A stretch of DNA of 47,795 nt, from NCBI GenBank assembly GCA_016191815.1, contig JACPVI010000060.1, positions 1 to 47,795 of the forward strand, given 5' to 3'. The notes under the pieces are model-generated. The model was not told the origin of the DNA. It searched no databases and was given only the letters and a program-made list of their open reading frames with translations. Positions 6,644 to 14,920 of the stretch are shown piece after piece (within the stretch, counting starts at the first letter, position 1; each line of letters starts with the position of its first letter). This DNA comes from Myxococcales bacterium. Lineage in GTDB: Bacteria; Myxococcota; Myxococcia; Myxococcales; Myxococcaceae. The position numbers and the translations under genes were made by a program.

Positions 6644-9600
6644 TCACAGTCGGACGGCGACGGTGGGCCCGGCGAAGACGTAGCCGCGGCGGGCCCAGGT
6701 CGGCGCGGCGAGGAGGTACAGCGCCGGCACCTCGAGCCCCACCGAGAGCCAGCGCACCGGCGCGTACTCCAGCCCCACGCTCAGCCCCGGTCCGAGGCTG
6801 GCGATGGGGTCGGTGAGGAGCGCCGCCAGCTCCACCGCCAACACCGGGCGAAGCTTCCCCTCGGCGTTGAACGGAACCCAGGACAGGCGGGCCAGGGCCC
6901 CCGGGTAGCTGGTGCCGAGCGCGCCGAGGCTCGCGGTGAGCGAGGGGACGATCTCGTAGCCAGCCAACGCCACCACGGCACCCGCGGGCGTCCGATCCGG
7001 AGTGGCCTGGATCCGCGCGAAGAAGGAGAACCGCGCCCGCACCACCTTCCGCCGCGCCACCGGCGAGGGGCCGAACAGCTCCAGCGCCGCGGAGGCGGCT
7101 GCGTCCAGGAAGGCCTCTTCGCTGGCGGACTGGATCTCGGTGGTGAAGCGCTTCTCCGCCACTCCCTTCTTCGCGTCGAAGAGCTGGACGGTGAAGACCA
7201 TGGTCGTCCCCAGCTTGCCGAGGGTGCCGGAGACGAGCTTGTCCGCGCCGATGGCTCCTCCGATCTCCGCGAGGCACCCGCTGTCGCTGCAGCCGAGGAG
7301 CTGCCGCTGCCGCTCGAAGCTCAGCACCGCCTGGATGTCGCTCGAGCTGATGGCCTGGACCCGCGGCCGATCGTGGATCGAGGCCACGAAGGCCTCGCTC
7401 ACCAGCTCGGCGGTCTTCGAGTCGACCCCGGGCCCGGCTTGGAGGGCGAGGATGGCGACCTTGACAGTTTCTGGAGGGGTCGGCGTACCCGGCGGCGGCT
7501 GGCTACCCGTCGGCTGCGCCGTGGAGGTGAGCGAGCTGTCGGGCGTCTTGGGCGACACGGTCGCCGCGGGCGGCGCAGAGGATCCCTCCGCCTTGGGCGG
7601 CGCGGTCGCCGATGCGGGAGTGGGCTTGCCGGCCAGAGGGGGCGCCGGCGAATCCGAGGACGCGCTTGGGACTAGTGGTGTCACCTCGACCTCGGCGGGC
7701 GCCGCCGTCGCGCTCGCCGGGGTCGCCGGCTTCTTCCTCTTCGAGGGAGCGGCGTTGGACTCGCCGGAGGCGGCGACCGCGAGGAGGAGAAGCAGCGAAG
7801 GCAGTGCCCTCCGCGCCCGCCGCAACAGAAGCAGCAGGGCGAACAGGCCGGCCGCCACGGTGGGGCCGCCGGAGTGGCATCCGCACGAGAGGGCGAAGAC
7901 GTTGGGGTTTCGCTCGGCGAGGGCCTCCTCCGCGCAGACGCCGCGGAGGCAACTGCCGCTGACGCACTCCTCGCCGGCCGCGCAGCCTTGCCCGAGTCCC
8001 TTCCTGCAACTGCCGGCTCCGTCGCAAAGCCACGGAGCATTGCAAACGGTGGGATCAGTCTGCCCGCGCGGTACCGGGCTGCACTGGCCGACCGCGCCGG
8101 CGACGGTGCAGGCGAAGCAAGCCCCATCGCAAGCCGCGTTGCAGCAGACTCCGTCCGCGCACACTCCCGAGGCGCAGAGGTATCCGGCGAGGCACGGCTG
8201 GCCGTCTTTCAGCCGGCACTTCCCTGCTCCGTCGCAGGCGTCGCCCGAGCCAGCGCAAGTGCCAACGTCGGTCGAGTCGCGCGGCACGTCGGCGCAGCTT
8301 CCCTCGAGGCCGGCGAGGTTGCAGGCCTTGCACTCCGCGGTGCAGGCGCTCTCGCAGCAGTAGCCGTCGATGCAGTGGCCGGTGGTGCACTGGCTGGCAG
8401 CGGTGCAGGCCTGTCCCGGCATCAGGAGGCTGCAGGCCCCGGCAGCGTCGCAGGCCTTGGGCGGCTCGCAGGTGCCGATGTCGCTCTTCCCCACCGGCGC
8501 GCGGCTGCAGGTGCCCAGCCGCTCGGCCACGTTGCACGCCTCGCAGGTGCCGTCGCAGGAGGAGTCGCAGCAGACGCCGTCCACGCAGAAGCCGCTCATG
8601 CAAACCGCCGCGGACTGGCAGGCGGCGCCGATGGGCTTCATGCTGCACTGCCCCGCACCGTCGCAGGCGTTGGGCACCTCGCAGGTGCCAACGTCCGTCT
8701 GCCCCTTGGGCACGCTGCTGCATTTCCCCGCGCGGCCCGCCAAGTCGCACGCCGCACATGTGCCGCTGCAAGCGGTGTCGCAGCAGACGCCGTCGGCGCA
8801 ATTGCCGGAGGCGCACTCGGACGGCAGGGTGCAGGCCTCCGCGTTGCAGCGGACTCCCTCCACGCAGCCGCCGGGCTGGCAGCCGGCGTTGCAGCAGGTG
8901 CCCGCCACGCAGTTGCCGCTCAGGCACTCCGAGGCCGCGGCGCAGGCCCTCCCCAGCGCGCTCTTGCAGGTGCCCTTCCCGTCGCAGGCGCGAAGCCCGG
9001 TGCAGGCGCCGTCCACGTAGCCTGCCGACACGTCGCTGCACACGCCGAGGGAGCCAGGCACGTTGCAGGCCTTGCAGTCCGCTCCGCAGGCGGCGTCGCA
9101 GCACACTCCGTCCGCGCAGAATCCGCTCAGGCAGTCGGAGGAGATGGCGCAGCCCTGGCCGAGCACCTTCTGGCAATTCCCGGCTCCGTCACAGGCGGAG
9201 GTGCCCACGCAGGAGGGCGCGTCGGAAAGGCCCTTCGCCACCGGCGCGCACTGGCCCAACAGGTTGCAGGCCTGGCAGGTGCCGGTGCAAGCGCTGGCGC
9301 AGCACACTCCGTCCGCGCAGAAGCCGGAGGCGCAGTCACCGGCCGCGCTGCAGGCGCTGCCCTGGGCCAGCTTGCAGGTGCCCACTGCGTCGCAGGCCGC
9401 CGGCGCCGCGCAGGTGTCGTCCGTCTGTCCGGAGGAGACGTCGCTGCACACCCCTTGCTTGCCGGCGAGGTTGCACGCCTTGCAGGTGCCGGCGCAGGAG
9501 GAGTCGCAGCAAACCCCGTCCACGCAACTCGCGCTCAAGCAGTCGGTCACCGCTGCGCAGGCGAGGCCGTTGAGTCCCTTGCAGCCTCCCGCCCCGTCGC

Positions 9601-12600
9601 AGGCGCTGGGGGAGGTGCAGGTGCCCACGTCACCCTTTCCGTTGGCCACCGGGCCGCAAATGCCCACGCCGCCCGGGTTGTCGCAGGCCTGGCAAGTTCC
9701 TTGGCATGCGGAGTCGCAGCAGAAGCCATCGACGCAGAAGCTCGAGGCGCACTCCGTGGCCGCTGCGCAGGCGGCGCCTTGCGGCTTCTTGCACGCCCCC
9801 GCACCGTCGCAAGCGTCCGGCGCAACGCAGGTGCTTGGGTCCGTCTGCCCCGCTGGCACCGGACTGCACGCCCCGAAACTTCCCACCACGTTGCACGCCT
9901 GGCAGACGCTGGCGCAGGAGTTGGCGCAGCACACTCCGTCCACGCAATTGCCGCTCAAGCAGTCCGCCACGGCGGCGCAGGCCTGCCCCAATACCAGCTT
10001 GCACCTTCCCAACCCATCGCAGGCGCTCGCGGGGCCCATGCAGGTGCCCATGTCCGTCTGACCCTGCGCCACCGGGCCGCAATTCCCGAGCTGCCCGGAG
10101 AGGTTGCACGCCTGGCAGGTGCCGGTGCAGGAGGTGGAGCAGCAGTAGCCATCCACGCAGAACCCCGAGGCGCAGTCGGAGGGGCTTGCGCAGGGCTGCC
10201 CGGGAAGCTTCTTGCAGGTGCCCAACCCGTCGCAGGCGTTGGGGGCGGAGCAAGTGCCAGGGTCCGTCCCTCCGTTGGGGACGTAGCTGCAGGCGCCGAT
10301 GCTGCCGGCGAGGTTACAGGCCCGGCAGTCCGCGGTGCAGGAGCTGTCGCAGCAGACGCCATCCGCGCAGTGGGCGTAGGCGCAGTCGCCGTCCAGGGCG
10401 CAGGCCTGGCCATTCTTCAGTCTGCAACTCCCGAGTCCGTCGCAGGCGCGGATAGGGTCGCACGCGCCTTGAGTCCCTTGGAGCGCGACGCCACAGCGGC
10501 CGGCGTCACCGGGCAGGTTGCAGGCCTCGCAGGCGCTTGTGCAGGCAACATCGCAGCAGAACCTGTCCACGCAGTACCCGCTGACGCACTCGGTGACGGC
10601 GGTGCATTGCTCTCCCGGAATCTTCTTGCAGGCACCCAGCCCGTCGCAGGCCACGCCGCCCCCGGCGTCACAGGTGTCCGGGTCGTTCCCCCACTTCGCC
10701 ACCGAGGTGCAGAAGCCCTCCTTCCCGGCGACGTCGCAGGCCTGGCAACCGCCGTCGCAAGGGCCGGTGCAGCAGTAGCCGTCCACGCACAGCCCATAGA
10801 GACAGTCTGAGGAGGCCCCGCAGGGCCGCGTGTTCCTCAGCTTGCAGCCGCCGTCCCCGTCGCAGGCGCTGGTGCCTTCGCAAGCGGCGGCCGGGACGCT
10901 GTCCTCGGCGCCGAAGGAGAGCTTGGCGCAAAAGCCCGAAGTCCAGCCTGGCGCCTTGCAGGACTCGCAGGTGGCGCAGGAGGGCGTCGCGCAGCAGGCG
11001 CCGTCCACGCAGTTCTGCGACTCGCAATCCGCCCCGGCGGTGCAGGGAGCGCCCACCGTGCCGTAGCCGATGCGGATTATCCGCGAGTGGCTGGGGACAC
11101 CGGCGACCATCACCGAAAGCCTGTGGAAGCCGTTGGACTGATCGGCGGGAACGGTGAAAGTGAGTGAGGCATCAGAGAAGGTGGAGGGAGGAAGCCAGCG
11201 AAGGCTGCCGCTGGACAGCGGGGACAGCGCTACCACCGGGAGGTCTGCCGCAGCGCCGGGCGCAGTGCCTCCAGCCGCCGAGTAGCCCCCGCGGAAGCCG
11301 CTGCCACTCAGGGTCACCGCATCGCCCTGCGCAGCCCACGACGGAGCCGAGGTGAGTGACGGGCGGGTGGCGCCAGTGAGGTCCACGAAAGGATCGGAGA
11401 GCTCCGCCGGTTCCTGCACATACGGGGTCGGACCGATGACCAGCACGCGACCGGTTGGCAGCAGGACCATCGAAGTGGATGAGCGCGCAGAGATTAGCGG
11501 CCCGACCGAAACCCACCGGTTGGCTGACGAGTCATAGAGCTCTGCACCATTCGTGCTCGACGGACCCCGGACCCCGTGTGCAACCAGGACCTTCCCGCTT
11601 GCCAGGAGCAGGCCGCTGTGGAAGCGGCGCGGCTCTCTCATGGCTGCAGCAGTGGCCCAGGAATTGGCTTCAGGATCATACAGATCGGCCGTGGCGAGGT
11701 AGTCGGGAGAGGCGTACCCCCCCACGACGAGCGCTTTCCCGGTCGGGAGCAGGACGGCGGCCGTGTTCTCCCGCGGTTGCGGCACGAAGCCGGTGGCGGT
11801 CCAGGTGGCGCTCGATGGGTCGTAGACATCGGAATTGACGGCAAGGCCACCAGACACCCTGCCGTGGGTCGCGAGTACCTTCCCCGATGGCAGCAGCACC
11901 ATCGGGAAATCTCGCCTTCCTTCGGTCAACGAGCCCGTAGATGCCCACCGGTCGGTGGAGGGGTCATACAGCTCCGCCGCCGCAAGGTACGAGTTGGTCG
12001 CGGAGCCACCGGCCACGAGCAGCATCCCGTTCGAAAGGAGTACAGCCGAGTGCCCCGAGCGGCCATCCACGAGCATCCCGGCCGCGGGGGACCAATCTCC
12101 GCTCCAGGGGTCGTACAGCAGGCTCGGACAACCCCAGCACCCACCCGCCACCAGCAGCTTTCCGGAGGCGAGCAGGGTCGCGGTGAAGCGGTCGCGCCAC
12201 TGCGGCATCAGCGGTGCCGGGCTCCAAAGCCCGCTCGCCGGATCGTAGAGCTCAGCCAGTTGGGAGGAGATGGCCAGCACCTTCCCGGTCGGCAGCAAGC
12301 TGACGACGAGCGGATCGATCGCCTGAGTCGGCGACCCGGTGCGGGTCCAGCCGCCGGCCGACTCGTAGTACCGCTCGGCGGTGGCGCCCGCCCCTCCGAC
12401 CATCAGCACGTCGCCGGTTGGCAGTAGCGCGGCATCGTGCTCACCGCGCGCCTGAGTCATTGTCCAGGCCGGTTGCCAGGTATCGTTCTGAGGGTCGTAG
12501 ATCTCGGCACTCGCCAACGGCGTCCCGGCGCCGTCCGTCCCAACGTAGCCGCCGACGACCAGCACGCGACCGCTTGGGAGCGGCAATGCCCGGTGTCCGT

Positions 12601-14920
12601 GGCGCTGTGCCACCATGGACGCCACGTCGGCCCACGTCCCGCTGCTCGGATCGTAGACCTCGACCGAGTTGGTCGACCACCCGCCGGAGAGCCCGCCCGC
12701 GACGACCACCTTGCCGTTCAGCGTGGGGGTGGCGGTGTGGCGGGTGTGCTCGCGCGCCATCGGGCTTGCCAAACTGTAGGCGCCGGAGGCCGGGTCCCAG
12801 ATCTCAACCGCCTGGGTCTGGCCGCCGGCGAAGAGCACCCTCCCGTTGGGCAGCAGCGCGGCCGCGCATTTGGGGCGGTACACCAACGTCTGGAGCGTCG
12901 TCTGCCAGGTGCACGGGCCTCCGCAGCTGTAGACGAAGCTCTGAGTCGGCCAAGCGCACGCCGCCAGAACACGCCCGTCGGGCAGGCGGATCATCTGATA
13001 GTCGTACAACGGGTTCGAGGCGAACCCCGGGCCAGCGCTCCACGAGTTGGTGGCCGGGTCGTACTCTTCGGACGGCGAACCGTATCCAGCGACCAGGACC
13101 CTCCCGGAAGGCAGCAGCATGGCCGCTTGCCATCTCCCTCTCCACCAGTTCATCATCGCCGCGGGGCTCCAAAGGCCAGTGGCGGGATCGAACAACTCGG
13201 CGGTTTGTGATTCCCCCCCCGCCACTAGCGCCTTGCCGTTGCCAAGAACGGTCACCGTAGGCCACCTCCGGGGGACCGACATCGGGTTGGTGGGCGACCA
13301 CACCGGCGCGAGCGTGTAGCGCTCGGAGTCCGCCAGCGCGGTCCCGGCGAGCCCTCCGGCCACCAGCACGTCGCCAGAGGGCAACACCGCCGCACCAGCG
13401 CCCTCGCGGGCGACACGCAAGGGGGCCATCGCGGCGAACTTGCCGCTTGAAGGCTCGAACACCTCAGCGCTTGGAAGCGCCGCGGTGCCGTCGTTGCCAC
13501 CCAGAAGCAGGGCGCGGCCAGAGGGAAGGAGCACTGCCGCGTGGCGGCGCCTCGCCTTCACCATGCTCACCTGGGCGCTCCAGGTGCCCGCCGCCTCGTC
13601 GTAGAGCACCGCGGTGTCCAGCGTGGCAGAGCCGTCCGTCCCTCCCGCCACCAGCACCTTCCCGTTGCGAAGCCGCACCGCCACCTGCTCGGCGCGGGCG
13701 GCCGGCAATGGGTTCCCTGCACTCCAGGAGTTGCCCGCCGAGTCGTACACATCGACCGTCGCGACTGGCGCGCCCGCACTCACTCCTCCCGTCACCAGCA
13801 CCTTCCCGCCCCCGAGCTTCGCCGCCGCCATTCCGCTCCGGGCGGTGATCGAGCCGGCCGAGGACCAGGTGCCAGCGCTGGCATCGAACAGCTCCGCAGT
13901 GCCTCCGGCGTCGCCTCCCACCATCAGCACCTTGCCGTTGTCCAGCAGCACCGCGCTCGCCGAGGCCCGCACGGCCGCCATCGCCGGGGCCGTCGCCCAA
14001 CTCCCCGAGACAGCATCGTAGAGCTGGCAGCTCGCCGCCCCGCCACCGCAGACCAATACCTTTCCGGTCGGCAGTAGGGTGGCGGTAGCGTTCCTCCGCG
14101 CCTCGGCCATCGGGGCGGTGGCGCTCCACTTGCCCGAAAACGCGTCGTACAGCTCGCAGCTGAGCAGCGCGTTGGTACCATCTTCCGTCCCGCCACACGC
14201 CAGCACTCGCCCGTCGCCGAGCAGCGCGAGGGCGTAGTCGTAGCGGGCAGTGCCCAGCGCCCCCACCGTCTTCTCCCAGACGGGGTCCAAGAGCACCGGG
14301 TACTCGAGCCCGCTCGCATCGAGCGCGACCGAAACCCTGCCCCGATCGATCGAGAGGGAGGCGTCGAGCCGCCGGCCTTTGGCGTCGATTGCCCACGGCC
14401 GGGCCAGCCGGAGCTGCTCCACGCCCTTCGAGTCCACTACCGCGCCGCTGGCGCGGAGGCTTCCTCCCTCCACCGCGACCTCGTACTCGAACCGGCTCGG
14501 CGCGCGAGGGCTGCGCAACAGCAGCAACTCCTCCGCCCGGTCCCGAGTGGCAACCTGCAGCGCGTCGGTGTCCGGATGAACGCCGCGGTACACCGCCACT
14601 CCCGAGGCCTCCGCCCTGGCCGAAGCAGCAGCCCCGGTGGCCCGAATGCGGAGGTGCACTCCCCCCCAGCCGACCACCAATGGCTGGTCCGCCTGGCGCG
14701 GAGTCCGGACCTCGAGCCAGTCGCCGGCACCCTCAGCCTTACCCTCTCCCGCTCGCGGGAGAGGGGATTCGCGCAACCGCTCGGCCGCGGCGGGAAAGCG
14801 CGAGCGAACCTCCTCGAGGAAGCGTTCCGCTGACTGCTGCTCGCCGCCGCGGCAGCCCGAGCAACCGGCGAGGGCCTGGCAGAAGGACAGCGCCAGCACA
14901 GCCTGGCCGAGTCTCCGCAT
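6644..14920 (-). CDS. Giant 2758-residue surface protein: kelch repeats, Cys-rich repeats, MYXO-CTERM-like helix, then TolB-like/outer-membrane segment
   Basis: Start is the ATG at 14920, with AAGGGGG upstream. Residues 1-20 are a lipoprotein signal ending LAGC. Residues to about 220 are a divergent N-terminal region. Residues about 220-1180 hold 21 kelch repeats (each with a GKVLVAGG-type strand and a YDP...W turn), as in galactose-oxidase-like propellers. An early-set Ig-like domain follows to about 1285. Residues about 1287-2335 hold about 15 Cys-rich units built on CVDGVCCDSSC, CxACN, G-x-C and CDGxGxC. At 2346-2375 comes CGC-HSGG, a hydrophobic helix and RRARR, which is the layout of a MYXO-CTERM sorting tail. 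It is directly followed by a second hydrophobic segment (ALPSLLLLLAVAAS...SNAAP), a Pro/Ala-rich linker, a TolB-like domain (LLGCSDSGCLAEIGGAIGADKLVSG) and about 200 residues ending in alternating strands like an outer-membrane barrel. No stop separates the two halves. It may be a true fusion, two genes joined by a lost stop, or one frame with an internal start (TTG at 7825). Confidence 0.85.
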   Translation of the reverse strand: MRRLGQAVLALSFCQALAGCSGCRGGEQQSAERFLEEVRSRFPAAAERLRESPLPRAGEGKAEGAGDWLEVRTPRQADQPLVVGWGGVHLRIRATGAAASARAEASGVAVYRGVHPDTDALQVATRDRAEELLLLRSPRAPSRFEYEVAVEGGSLRASGAVVDSKGVEQLRLARPWAIDAKGRRLDASLSIDRGRVSVALDASGLEYPVLLDPVWEKTVGALGTARYDYALALLGDGRVLACGGTEDGTNALLSCELYDAFSGKWSATAPMAEARRNATATLLPTGKVLVCGGGAASCQLYDAVSGSWATAPAMAAVRASASAVLLDNGKVLMVGGDAGGTAELFDASAGTWSSAGSITARSGMAAAKLGGGKVLVTGGVSAGAPVATVDVYDSAGNSWSAGNPLPAARAEQVAVRLRNGKVLVAGGTDGSATLDTAVLYDEAAGTWSAQVSMVKARRRHAAVLLPSGRALLLGGNDGTAALPSAEVFEPSSGKFAAMAPLRVAREGAGAAVLPSGDVLVAGGLAGTALADSERYTLAPVWSPTNPMSVPRRWPTVTVLGNGKALVAGGESQTAELFDPATGLWSPAAMMNWWRGRWQAAMLLPSGRVLVAGYGSPSEEYDPATNSWSAGPGFASNPLYDYQMIRLPDGRVLAACAWPTQSFVYSCGGPCTWQTTLQTLVYRPKCAAALLPNGRVLFAGGQTQAVEIWDPASGAYSLASPMAREHTRHTATPTLNGKVVVAGGLSGGWSTNSVEVYDPSSGTWADVASMVAQRHGHRALPLPSGRVLVVGGYVGTDGAGTPLASAEIYDPQNDTWQPAWTMTQARGEHDAALLPTGDVLMVGGAGATAERYYESAGGWTRTGSPTQAIDPLVVSLLPTGKVLAISSQLAELYDPASGLWSPAPLMPQWRDRFTATLLASGKLLVAGGCWGCPSLLYDPWSGDWSPAAGMLVDGRSGHSAVLLSNGMLLVAGGSATNSYLAAAELYDPSTDRWASTGSLTEGRRDFPMVLLPSGKVLATHGRVSGGLAVNSDVYDPSSATWTATGFVPQPRENTAAVLLPTGKALVVGGYASPDYLATADLYDPEANSWATAAAMREPRRFHSGLLLASGKVLVAHGVRGPSSTNGAELYDSSANRWVSVGPLISARSSTSMVLLPTGRVLVIGPTPYVQEPAELSDPFVDLTGATRPSLTSAPSWAAQGDAVTLSGSGFRGGYSAAGGTAPGAAADLPVVALSPLSSGSLRWLPPSTFSDASLTFTVPADQSNGFHRLSVMVAGVPSHSRIIRIGYGTVGAPCTAGADCESQNCVDGACCATPSCATCESCKAPGWTSGFCAKLSFGAEDSVPAAACEGTSACDGDGGCKLRNTRPCGASSDCLYGLCVDGYCCTGPCDGGCQACDVAGKEGFCTSVAKWGNDPDTCDAGGGVACDGLGACKKIPGEQCTAVTECVSGYCVDRFCCDVACTSACEACNLPGDAGRCGVALQGTQGACDPIRACDGLGSCRLKNGQACALDGDCAYAHCADGVCCDSSCTADCRACNLAGSIGACSYVPNGGTDPGTCSAPNACDGLGTCKKLPGQPCASPSDCASGFCVDGYCCSTSCTGTCQACNLSGQLGNCGPVAQGQTDMGTCMGPASACDGLGRCKLVLGQACAAVADCLSGNCVDGVCCANSCASVCQACNVVGSFGACSPVPAGQTDPSTCVAPDACDGAGACKKPQGAACAAATECASSFCVDGFCCDSACQGTCQACDNPGGVGICGPVANGKGDVGTCTSPSACDGAGGCKGLNGLACAAVTDCLSASCVDGVCCDSSCAGTCKACNLAGKQGVCSDVSSGQTDDTCAAPAACDAVGTCKLAQGSACSAAGDCASGFCADGVCCASACTGTCQACNLLGQCAPVAKGLSDAPSCVGTSACDGAGNCQKVLGQGCAISSDCLSGFCADGVCCDAACGADCKACNVPGSLGVCSDVSAGYVDGACTGLRACDGKGTCKSALGRACAAASECLSGNCVAGTCCNAGCQPGGCVEGVRCNAEACTLPSECASGNCADGVCCDTACSGTCAACDLAGRAGKCSSVPKGQTDVGTCEVPNACDGAGQCSMKPIGAACQSAAVCMSGFCVDGVCCDSSCDGTCEACNVAERLGTCSRAPVGKSDIGTCEPPKACDAAGACSLLMPGQACTAASQCTTGHCIDGYCCESACTAECKACNLAGLEGSCADVPRDSTDVGTCAGSGDACDGAGKCRLKDGQPCLAGYLCASGVCADGVCCNAACDGACFACTVAGAVGQCSPVPRGQTDPTVCNAPWLCDGAGSCRKGLGQGCAAGEECVSGSCLRGVCAEEALAERNPNVFALSCGCHSGGPTVAAGLFALLLLLRRARRALPSLLLLLAVAASGESNAAPSKRKKPATPASATAAPAEVEVTPLVPSASSDSPAPPLAGKPTPASATAPPKAEGSSAPPAATVSPKTPDSSLTSTAQPTGSQPPPGTPTPPETVKVAILALQAGPGVDSKTAELVSEAFVASIHDRPRVQAISSSDIQAVLSFERQRQLLGCSDSGCLAEIGGAIGADKLVSGTLGKLGTTMVFTVQLFDAKKGVAEKRFTTEIQSASEEAFLDAAASAALELFGPSPVARRKVVRARFSFFARIQATPDRTPAGAVVALAGYEIVPSLTASLGALGTSYPGALARLSWVPFNAEGKLRPVLAVELAALLTDPIASLGPGLSVGLEYAPVRWLSVGLEVPALYLLAAPTWARRGYVFAGPTVAVRL
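7925..11061 (-). repeat. Tandem Cys-rich protein repeats, about 15 units
   Basis: Within the giant gene, units of roughly 65-70 codons repeat. Each has a DGVCC or DGYCC core, a CxACN turn, a short Gly-Cys segment, a D-x-x-T/C segment and a CDGxGxC end. Unit 11 (around 8840-8960) departs from the pattern (CVAGTCC, then QPGGC). DNA copies have diverged, so the array is ancient rather than a recent slippage product. Similar DGVCC repeats occur in many secreted Myxococcota proteins; the Cys spacing suggests disulfide-bonded modules. Confidence 0.8.
11385..14260 (-). repeat. 21 kelch repeats in the giant gene
   Basis: I counted 21 occurrences of the strand motif xxGKVLVxGG (variants include PSGRALLLGG, LNGKVVVAGG and ASGKVLVAHG), each followed about 10-20 residues later by Y/F-D/E-P-x-x-x-x-W. 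Each unit is about 45 codons. Twenty-one units could make three seven-bladed propellers, although unit boundaries and the number of blades per propeller are inference. Units 9, 10, 15, 18, 20 and 21 lack the final GG, so some blades are degenerate. Confidence 0.8.

Follow-up and report, generated by a model that had tools for sequence, protein, structure and literature searches.

A stop-free joint between a MYXO-CTERM-like segment and an internal signal-peptide-like helix suggests a natural polyprotein in a myxobacterial envelope gene

A single gene of a Myxococcales bacterium encodes a large surface protein which runs, through a MYXO-CTERM-like sorting segment and without a stop, into a second signal-peptide-like helix and an outer-membrane type of partner. 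This gene probably encodes a natural polyprotein, from which the surface protein and its outer-membrane partner would be released by two cuts. It is one frame with two separately foldable products, and this organization has been kept over evolution. The same stop-free joint was found in at least 24 myxobacterial genera, and it therefore looks like a general way to make two cell-surface proteins from one precursor.

Architecture of the joined protein

The gene lies in a stretch of 47,795 nucleotides (contig JACPVI010000060.1 of assembly GCA_016191815.1), referred to in whole as the window. An earlier reading, made from the letters of the window and here called the sequence-only reading, had placed one joined frame of 2758 residues at 6644-14920, and this proved to be a single open frame of the minus strand, complete from ATG to stop. 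Its features are collected in Table 1. The lipoprotein-type signal at the N-terminus, which by eye reads LALSFCQALAGC, was absent from the sequence-only reading; because of the lipobox LAGC, the N-terminus of the protein may be lipidated besides the internal Cys. The relative L032, from an Archangium metagenome-assembled genome (MAG) and with a kelch N-terminal part, likewise starts with a lipobox, LVSC. In the stalk, whose repeats cover residues 1293-2324, a regular expression for the Cys-rich repeat gave 16 matches, and 180 Cys are found within residues 1250-2340. An NCBIfam match to the radical copper oxidase GlxA was rejected, with kelch similarity only and a score far under the family cut-off. 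Long open reading frames antisense to the gene (e.g., 7874-10810 on the plus strand, 978 aa) were taken as by-products of GC-rich coding. Around the gene, between 1914 and 25658, lie neighbours of unrelated housekeeping or sensory function (ALAD, methyltransferase, DUF1015, Uma2, 2-hydroxyacid dehydrogenase, CheA, and a chemoreceptor).

Table 1. Features of the joined gene (positions in the window; residues of the joined protein)
Feature	Position	Strand	Evidence
Whole joined ORF, 2758 aa	6644..14920	-	Single open frame, ATG 14920, TGA stop at 6644
N-terminal lipoprotein-type signal peptide, MRRLGQAVLALSFCQALAGC..	14849..14920	-	Lipobox LAGC, read by eye
Kelch-repeat beta-propeller region, about residues 220-1190	11350..14260	-	Pfam Kelch_1 5e-64, others
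Cys-rich repeat stalk, at least 16 copies, about residues 1293-2335	7918..11044	-	Regular-expression matches
Internal MYXO-CTERM-like segment (CGC, first helix, RRARR), residues 2346-2371	7808..7885	-	TIGR03901/TIGR03382, AlphaFold2 (AF2) helix
RRARR cluster common to both signals, residues 2367-2371	7808..7822	-	Sequence, joint anatomy
Second, internal signal-peptide-like helix and candidate signal peptidase site, ALPSLLLLLAVAASGESNA	7751..7807	-	Sequence, AF2
Pro/Ala/Ser-rich disordered linker	7466..7750	-	AF2 pLDDT mostly <50
TolB/LpoB-like alpha/beta domain, about residues 2486-2616	7073..7465	-	AF2 and Foldseek: TolB 7mx5, LpoB 4q6l; Pfam DUF3280 weak
Eight-stranded outer-membrane beta-barrel, about residues 2630-2758	6647..7035	-	AF2 and Foldseek: OprF N-domain 4rlc (TMt 0.70), NspA, OmpX, OmpA

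The second half was modelled with AlphaFold2 from residue 2335 on, together with 15 relatives. The model starts with two helices and the disordered linker, after which an alpha/beta domain and eight strands are both predicted with confidence; the structured part beyond the Pro-rich linker amounts to about 270 residues. The strands (296-423 of the modelled fragment, pLDDT mostly >90) are antiparallel and close a C-terminal barrel, for which Foldseek returned the N-terminal barrel of OprF (4rlc, E 2.8e-6), NspA, OmpW, OmpA, and OmpX. Because of the AlphaFold2 model and these structural matches, the second half is predicted to be a TolB/LpoB-like periplasmic domain followed by a small outer-membrane barrel. 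The folds of the N-domain of TolB, of LpoB and PelC, and of the OprF/OmpA/NspA barrels resemble the two C-terminal domains; however, unlike in the joined protein, both domains together were found in no single solved structure among the Foldseek matches. A sequence search of the PDB with the C-terminal profile gave no match at E<=0.1, and a plasmid search with the TolB-like partner gave none.

Anatomy of the joint and selection acting on it

The sequence-only reading had assigned residues 2346-2375 the layout of a MYXO-CTERM tail. Its numbering was right: the CGC motif is formed by residues 2346-2348, the first hydrophobic helix by about 2355-2365 as read from the sequence (2355-2368 in AlphaFold2), and this transmembrane helix is followed by the Arg cluster RRARR. 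Scored as a fragment, the segment only just reaches the cut-off of TIGR03901 (20.0 bits with a cut-off of 20) and exceeds that of TIGR03382 (18.0 with a cut-off of 15.85); in the six-frame scan of the genome, its TIGR03901 score is 18.2, under the cut-off of 20. When it is aligned with 52 other joints, the Cys column is invariant. What the segment does not keep is the C-terminal position, as 387 residues follow it without a stop. After RRARR the frame continues through ALPSLLLLLAVAASGESNAAP, including a second helix (residues 2373-2384 in AlphaFold2), and then into the Pro-rich linker; sequence, AlphaFold2 and Foldseek thus bear out the proposed stop-free passage into a signal-peptide-like segment, linker, TolB-like domain, and barrel. 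The best signal peptidase site of this joint is an awkward one, SNA before the cut and AP after it, with Pro right behind the cut.

A first profile, built from 16 joints, led to many further ones, and 56 were dissected besides that of the window (n = 57). The order of elements in the joints is a Cys motif, a helix, a single Arg cluster, a second helix, and an AxA or lipobox site; in each of the 57, this layout agrees with the earlier suggestion of one Arg cluster shared by the two signals. The Arg-rich loop between the two hydrophobic segments is 3-10 residues long, with a median of 5 (57/57 joints). An AxA-type site or lipobox stands behind the second helix in 57/57 joints, compared to 42.6 (sd 3.0) in shuffled sequences, AxA followed by Q, E, or D in 28/57 compared to 5.0 (sd 2.0), and a lipobox in 9/57 compared to 2.7 (sd 1.3). 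The internal signal of the 57 joints has a positive n-region, a hydrophobic core, and an AxA-type or lipobox site. Since these sites exceed the shuffles, the second helix has the look of a genuine signal peptide, which in some joints would be of the lipoprotein type.

In the close pair G016/G032, the joint differs by 12 synonymous and 1 non-synonymous changes (dN/dS 0.03), and the ratio is higher outside it (0.17 upstream and 0.08 downstream); purifying selection acts on the joint here. For pairs further apart, its dN/dS is 0.3-0.7 and the sequence drifts while frame and anatomy are kept, so that it is the anatomy, not the sequence, which is conserved there.

Recurrence of the joint in Myxococcota

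When 60 related genomes were searched with the second half of the protein, the same partner type was found after a MYXO-CTERM-like segment, without a stop, in L032, L035, L036, L037, L038, L040, L041, L042, L044, and L046, and also on the truncated contigs of L033 and L039. The N-terminal domains differ among these joined relatives (L032-L046). The sequence-only reading had asked whether homologues exist as two genes separated by a stop; this state was found in no close relative of the protein, and the nearest full-length relative of the partner (L002, 46% identical) is fused too. Two full-length relatives of the TolB-barrel part, L031 and L022, stand alone; the sequence upstream of them is unrelated to a MYXO-CTERM gene, and they therefore offer no evidence for a two-gene ancestor. 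Since other genomes carry the same stop-free joint, the joint of the window is more than a chance event.

A profile of 53 joints, used at E<=1e-8, gave 54 matches, all of them stop-free (54/54), in 32 of 195 Myxococcota genomes and 24 of 90 genera. So strict a threshold, which excludes even the joint of the window, makes the breadth a lower bound; on the other hand, the profile derives from joined examples and its counts are biased towards tight joints. The MYXO-CTERM model alone gives a less biased count. In the source genome it yielded 43 matches, of which about 36 look real; most stop 0-8 residues past the Arg cluster, and 5 of the approximately 36 run into a second signal (the gene of the window on contig C49, one on C37, two on C69, and one on C65). 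In G103, a genome of one contig (12.5 Mb), 2 of the 30 best matches do so. The close relatives of one OmpA-type partner are joined in 9/9 cases, from four or five genera of the family. The source genome also holds an ordinary two-gene state, at L072 (G000:C48:90794-90880), where a MYXO-CTERM segment with a normal stop is followed about 20 codons on by a new ATG and signal peptide in the same frame. At L060 (G000:C33:449-538), a good MYXO-CTERM segment is followed by 127 residues without a recognisable signal peptide, and a stop may really have been lost here, or the frame may have shifted close to a contig end.

Possible fates of the joined chain

In the polyprotein reading that we favour, the surface part would comprise the lipoprotein-type signal, the kelch propeller, and the Cys-rich stalk, and the partner the TolB/LpoB-like domain with the eight-stranded barrel. 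The joint between them would be a tight helical hairpin in the inner membrane carrying two sorting signals. The first, MYXO-CTERM helix would enter the inner membrane and act as a stop-transfer, the Arg cluster, left on the cytoplasmic side, would double as the first signal's tail and the n-region of the one that follows, and the second helix would serve as a signal peptide at which export restarts. Signal peptidase I would then cut past the second helix near SNA, freeing the TolB-barrel protein for the outer membrane, and cleavage by the myxosortase MrtX, behind the (lipidated) Cys of the MYXO-CTERM segment, would lead to lipid-anchored surface display of the kelch/Cys protein via the type II pathway. 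In this way a receptor-like protein would be produced in the same copy number as its outer-membrane partner. The source genome encodes MrtX (G000:C48:57045-57734; NF040593, 345.9 bits with a cut-off of 180, E=3.8e-103) and a signal peptidase I (PF10502). We infer both cleavages, the lipidation, the surface display, and the partnership from sequence; a hairpin in the inner membrane, cut by signal peptidase on one side and by myxosortase on the other, is the simplest reading.

The chain might instead stay whole, its two helices remaining as an inner-membrane hairpin with the kelch/Cys and TolB-barrel parts both outside and the long linker tying the inner to the outer membrane. A hairpin with a short Arg loop suits a two-helix anchor, and a disordered linker as long as this one (about 95 residues) could bridge part of the periplasm; however, cleavage sites follow the second helix in every dissected joint, well over the shuffles and with nine lipoboxes among them, the myxosortase gene is present, and such segments are reported to be cut by myxosortase in M. 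xanthus (PMC11980579), so we regard an uncut chain as unlikely. Translation of the second gene from an internal codon, with the run-through of the first as a by-product, seems to us quite unlikely. The codon in question would be TTG at 7825, which lies before RRARR and would yield a normal-looking signal peptide, and some possible start was found in 31/57 joints (ATG in 13). Nevertheless, there is no evident ribosome-binding site upstream of this TTG, and in 26/57 joints the surroundings of the Arg cluster hold no ATG, GTG, or TTG, which argues against a separate start in those; moreover, with no stop in the way, ribosomes coming from upstream would read on anyway.

The sequence-only reading had itself left open a processed fusion, a lost stop codon, and an assembly error. 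The assembly of the source genome is in 89 contigs, and a base-call or assembly error, or a recent loss of a stop, might have joined two ordinary genes in it. Both the lost stop and the error can nevertheless be rejected as very improbable, given the same stop-free joint in 24 genera, single-contig genomes included, the four further joined genes of the source genome, and the purifying selection on the joint in the close pair. It is the processed fusion that these data favour, with relatives stop-free at the joint even in the single-contig G103 and a dN/dS of 0.03 in the close pair, the cleavage being predicted from the signals.

Relation to known systems

Polyproteins are, to our knowledge, rare in bacteria. 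The cytochrome b/c1 precursor FbcH of Bradyrhizobium is one example, with cleavage at a signal sequence inside the chain; unlike the protein described here, it gives rise to respiratory proteins and has neither a C-terminal sorting tag nor a myxosortase. Viruses use internal signal peptides in their polyproteins and so tie production, stoichiometry, and targeting together. A literature search on prokaryotic polyproteins, incomplete in coverage, returned nothing useful.

MrtX was reported to cut MYXO-CTERM in M. xanthus and in E. coli, and lipidation of the MYXO-CTERM Cys before cutting was proposed (Guo, Haft and Wall 2025, PMC11980579). As far as the passages of that paper considered here go, the principle already has one published instance, MXAN_5598 of Myxococcus xanthus, called atypical: a single ORF with an internal MYXO-CTERM, whose N-terminal part is, as the authors propose, probably processed and surface-anchored (PMC11980579). 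Like the protein of the window, it combines a large surface part, an internal MYXO-CTERM, and an outer-membrane beta-barrel in one ORF; its partner is, however, a barrel with OmpA, not a TolB/LpoB-like domain with an eight-stranded barrel. It is also given as one case, its description in those passages holding no second signal peptide that shares the Arg cluster, whereas many genera and several partner types were found here. The TraA/TraB pair of outer membrane exchange is alike in that a Cys-rich MYXO-CTERM surface receptor is directly followed by an outer-membrane partner, the two ORFs overlapping by four bases (PMC3325183). TraA and TraB are, however, two ORFs with the stop kept, of which the joined gene is a stop-free version; TraA has PA14 in place of kelch, and TraB an OmpA domain in place of the TolB-like one. 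Relative to the literature searched, which was covered in part, novelty appears to lie in the TolB-barrel class, in the internal signal peptide sharing its Arg cluster, in the tandem and the lipoprotein classes, and in the breadth.

Should cutting take place where the signals indicate, each precursor would supply a myxobacterium with a matched set of envelope proteins, whose production, stoichiometry, and targeting would be tied together in a virus-like manner. Partners would then be predicted for many surface proteins of unknown function, and counts of MYXO-CTERM proteins would change, as the tag must be looked for within ORFs. The joint would also offer a direct test of whether myxosortase requires a free C-terminus.

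Partner classes behind the joint

Partners of several types stand behind the joint: TolB-like domain with barrel, barrel with OmpA, a second MYXO-CTERM protein, and lipoprotein. Domain matches in 53 downstream parts included OmpA (PF00691) in 13, CARDB in 8, He_PIG in 7, and MopE-type repeats in 3, with trypsin and RHS among the others; the parts with CARDB or He_PIG are mostly tandem surface proteins with a terminal MYXO-CTERM of their own, and about 15 downstream parts are of the TolB-barrel type. We lean towards the view that the stop-free MYXO-CTERM/signal-peptide hairpin is a general device of Myxococcota, modular and reused, which would turn operons into one-chain precursors, with a different membrane protease cutting on each side of the hairpin. 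The operons concerned would encode a surface protein with an outer-membrane partner, two surface proteins, or a surface protein with a lipoprotein.

Individual loci illustrate these classes. L089 (G000:C37:1-10000) is a frame of 2057 aa with tandem paralogous CARDB/putative-Ig surface proteins, a MYXO-CTERM on each, and the joined tandem frames L136, L145, L147, L152, L253, and L256 resemble it. The internal second signal is of the lipoprotein type in L090 (G000:C69:36698-36826), L164, L166, L141, L153, and L160 (e.g., RRGRGAAAALLASFLAAC). It is also worth mentioning L095 of the source genome (G000:C65:40260-40418), in which MYXO-CTERM and second helix lie within an RHS-repeat protein, directly before the conserved RHS core motif YFFHNDRLGTPVRLTD; a hairpin in this position would divide a single RHS shell instead of linking two genes.
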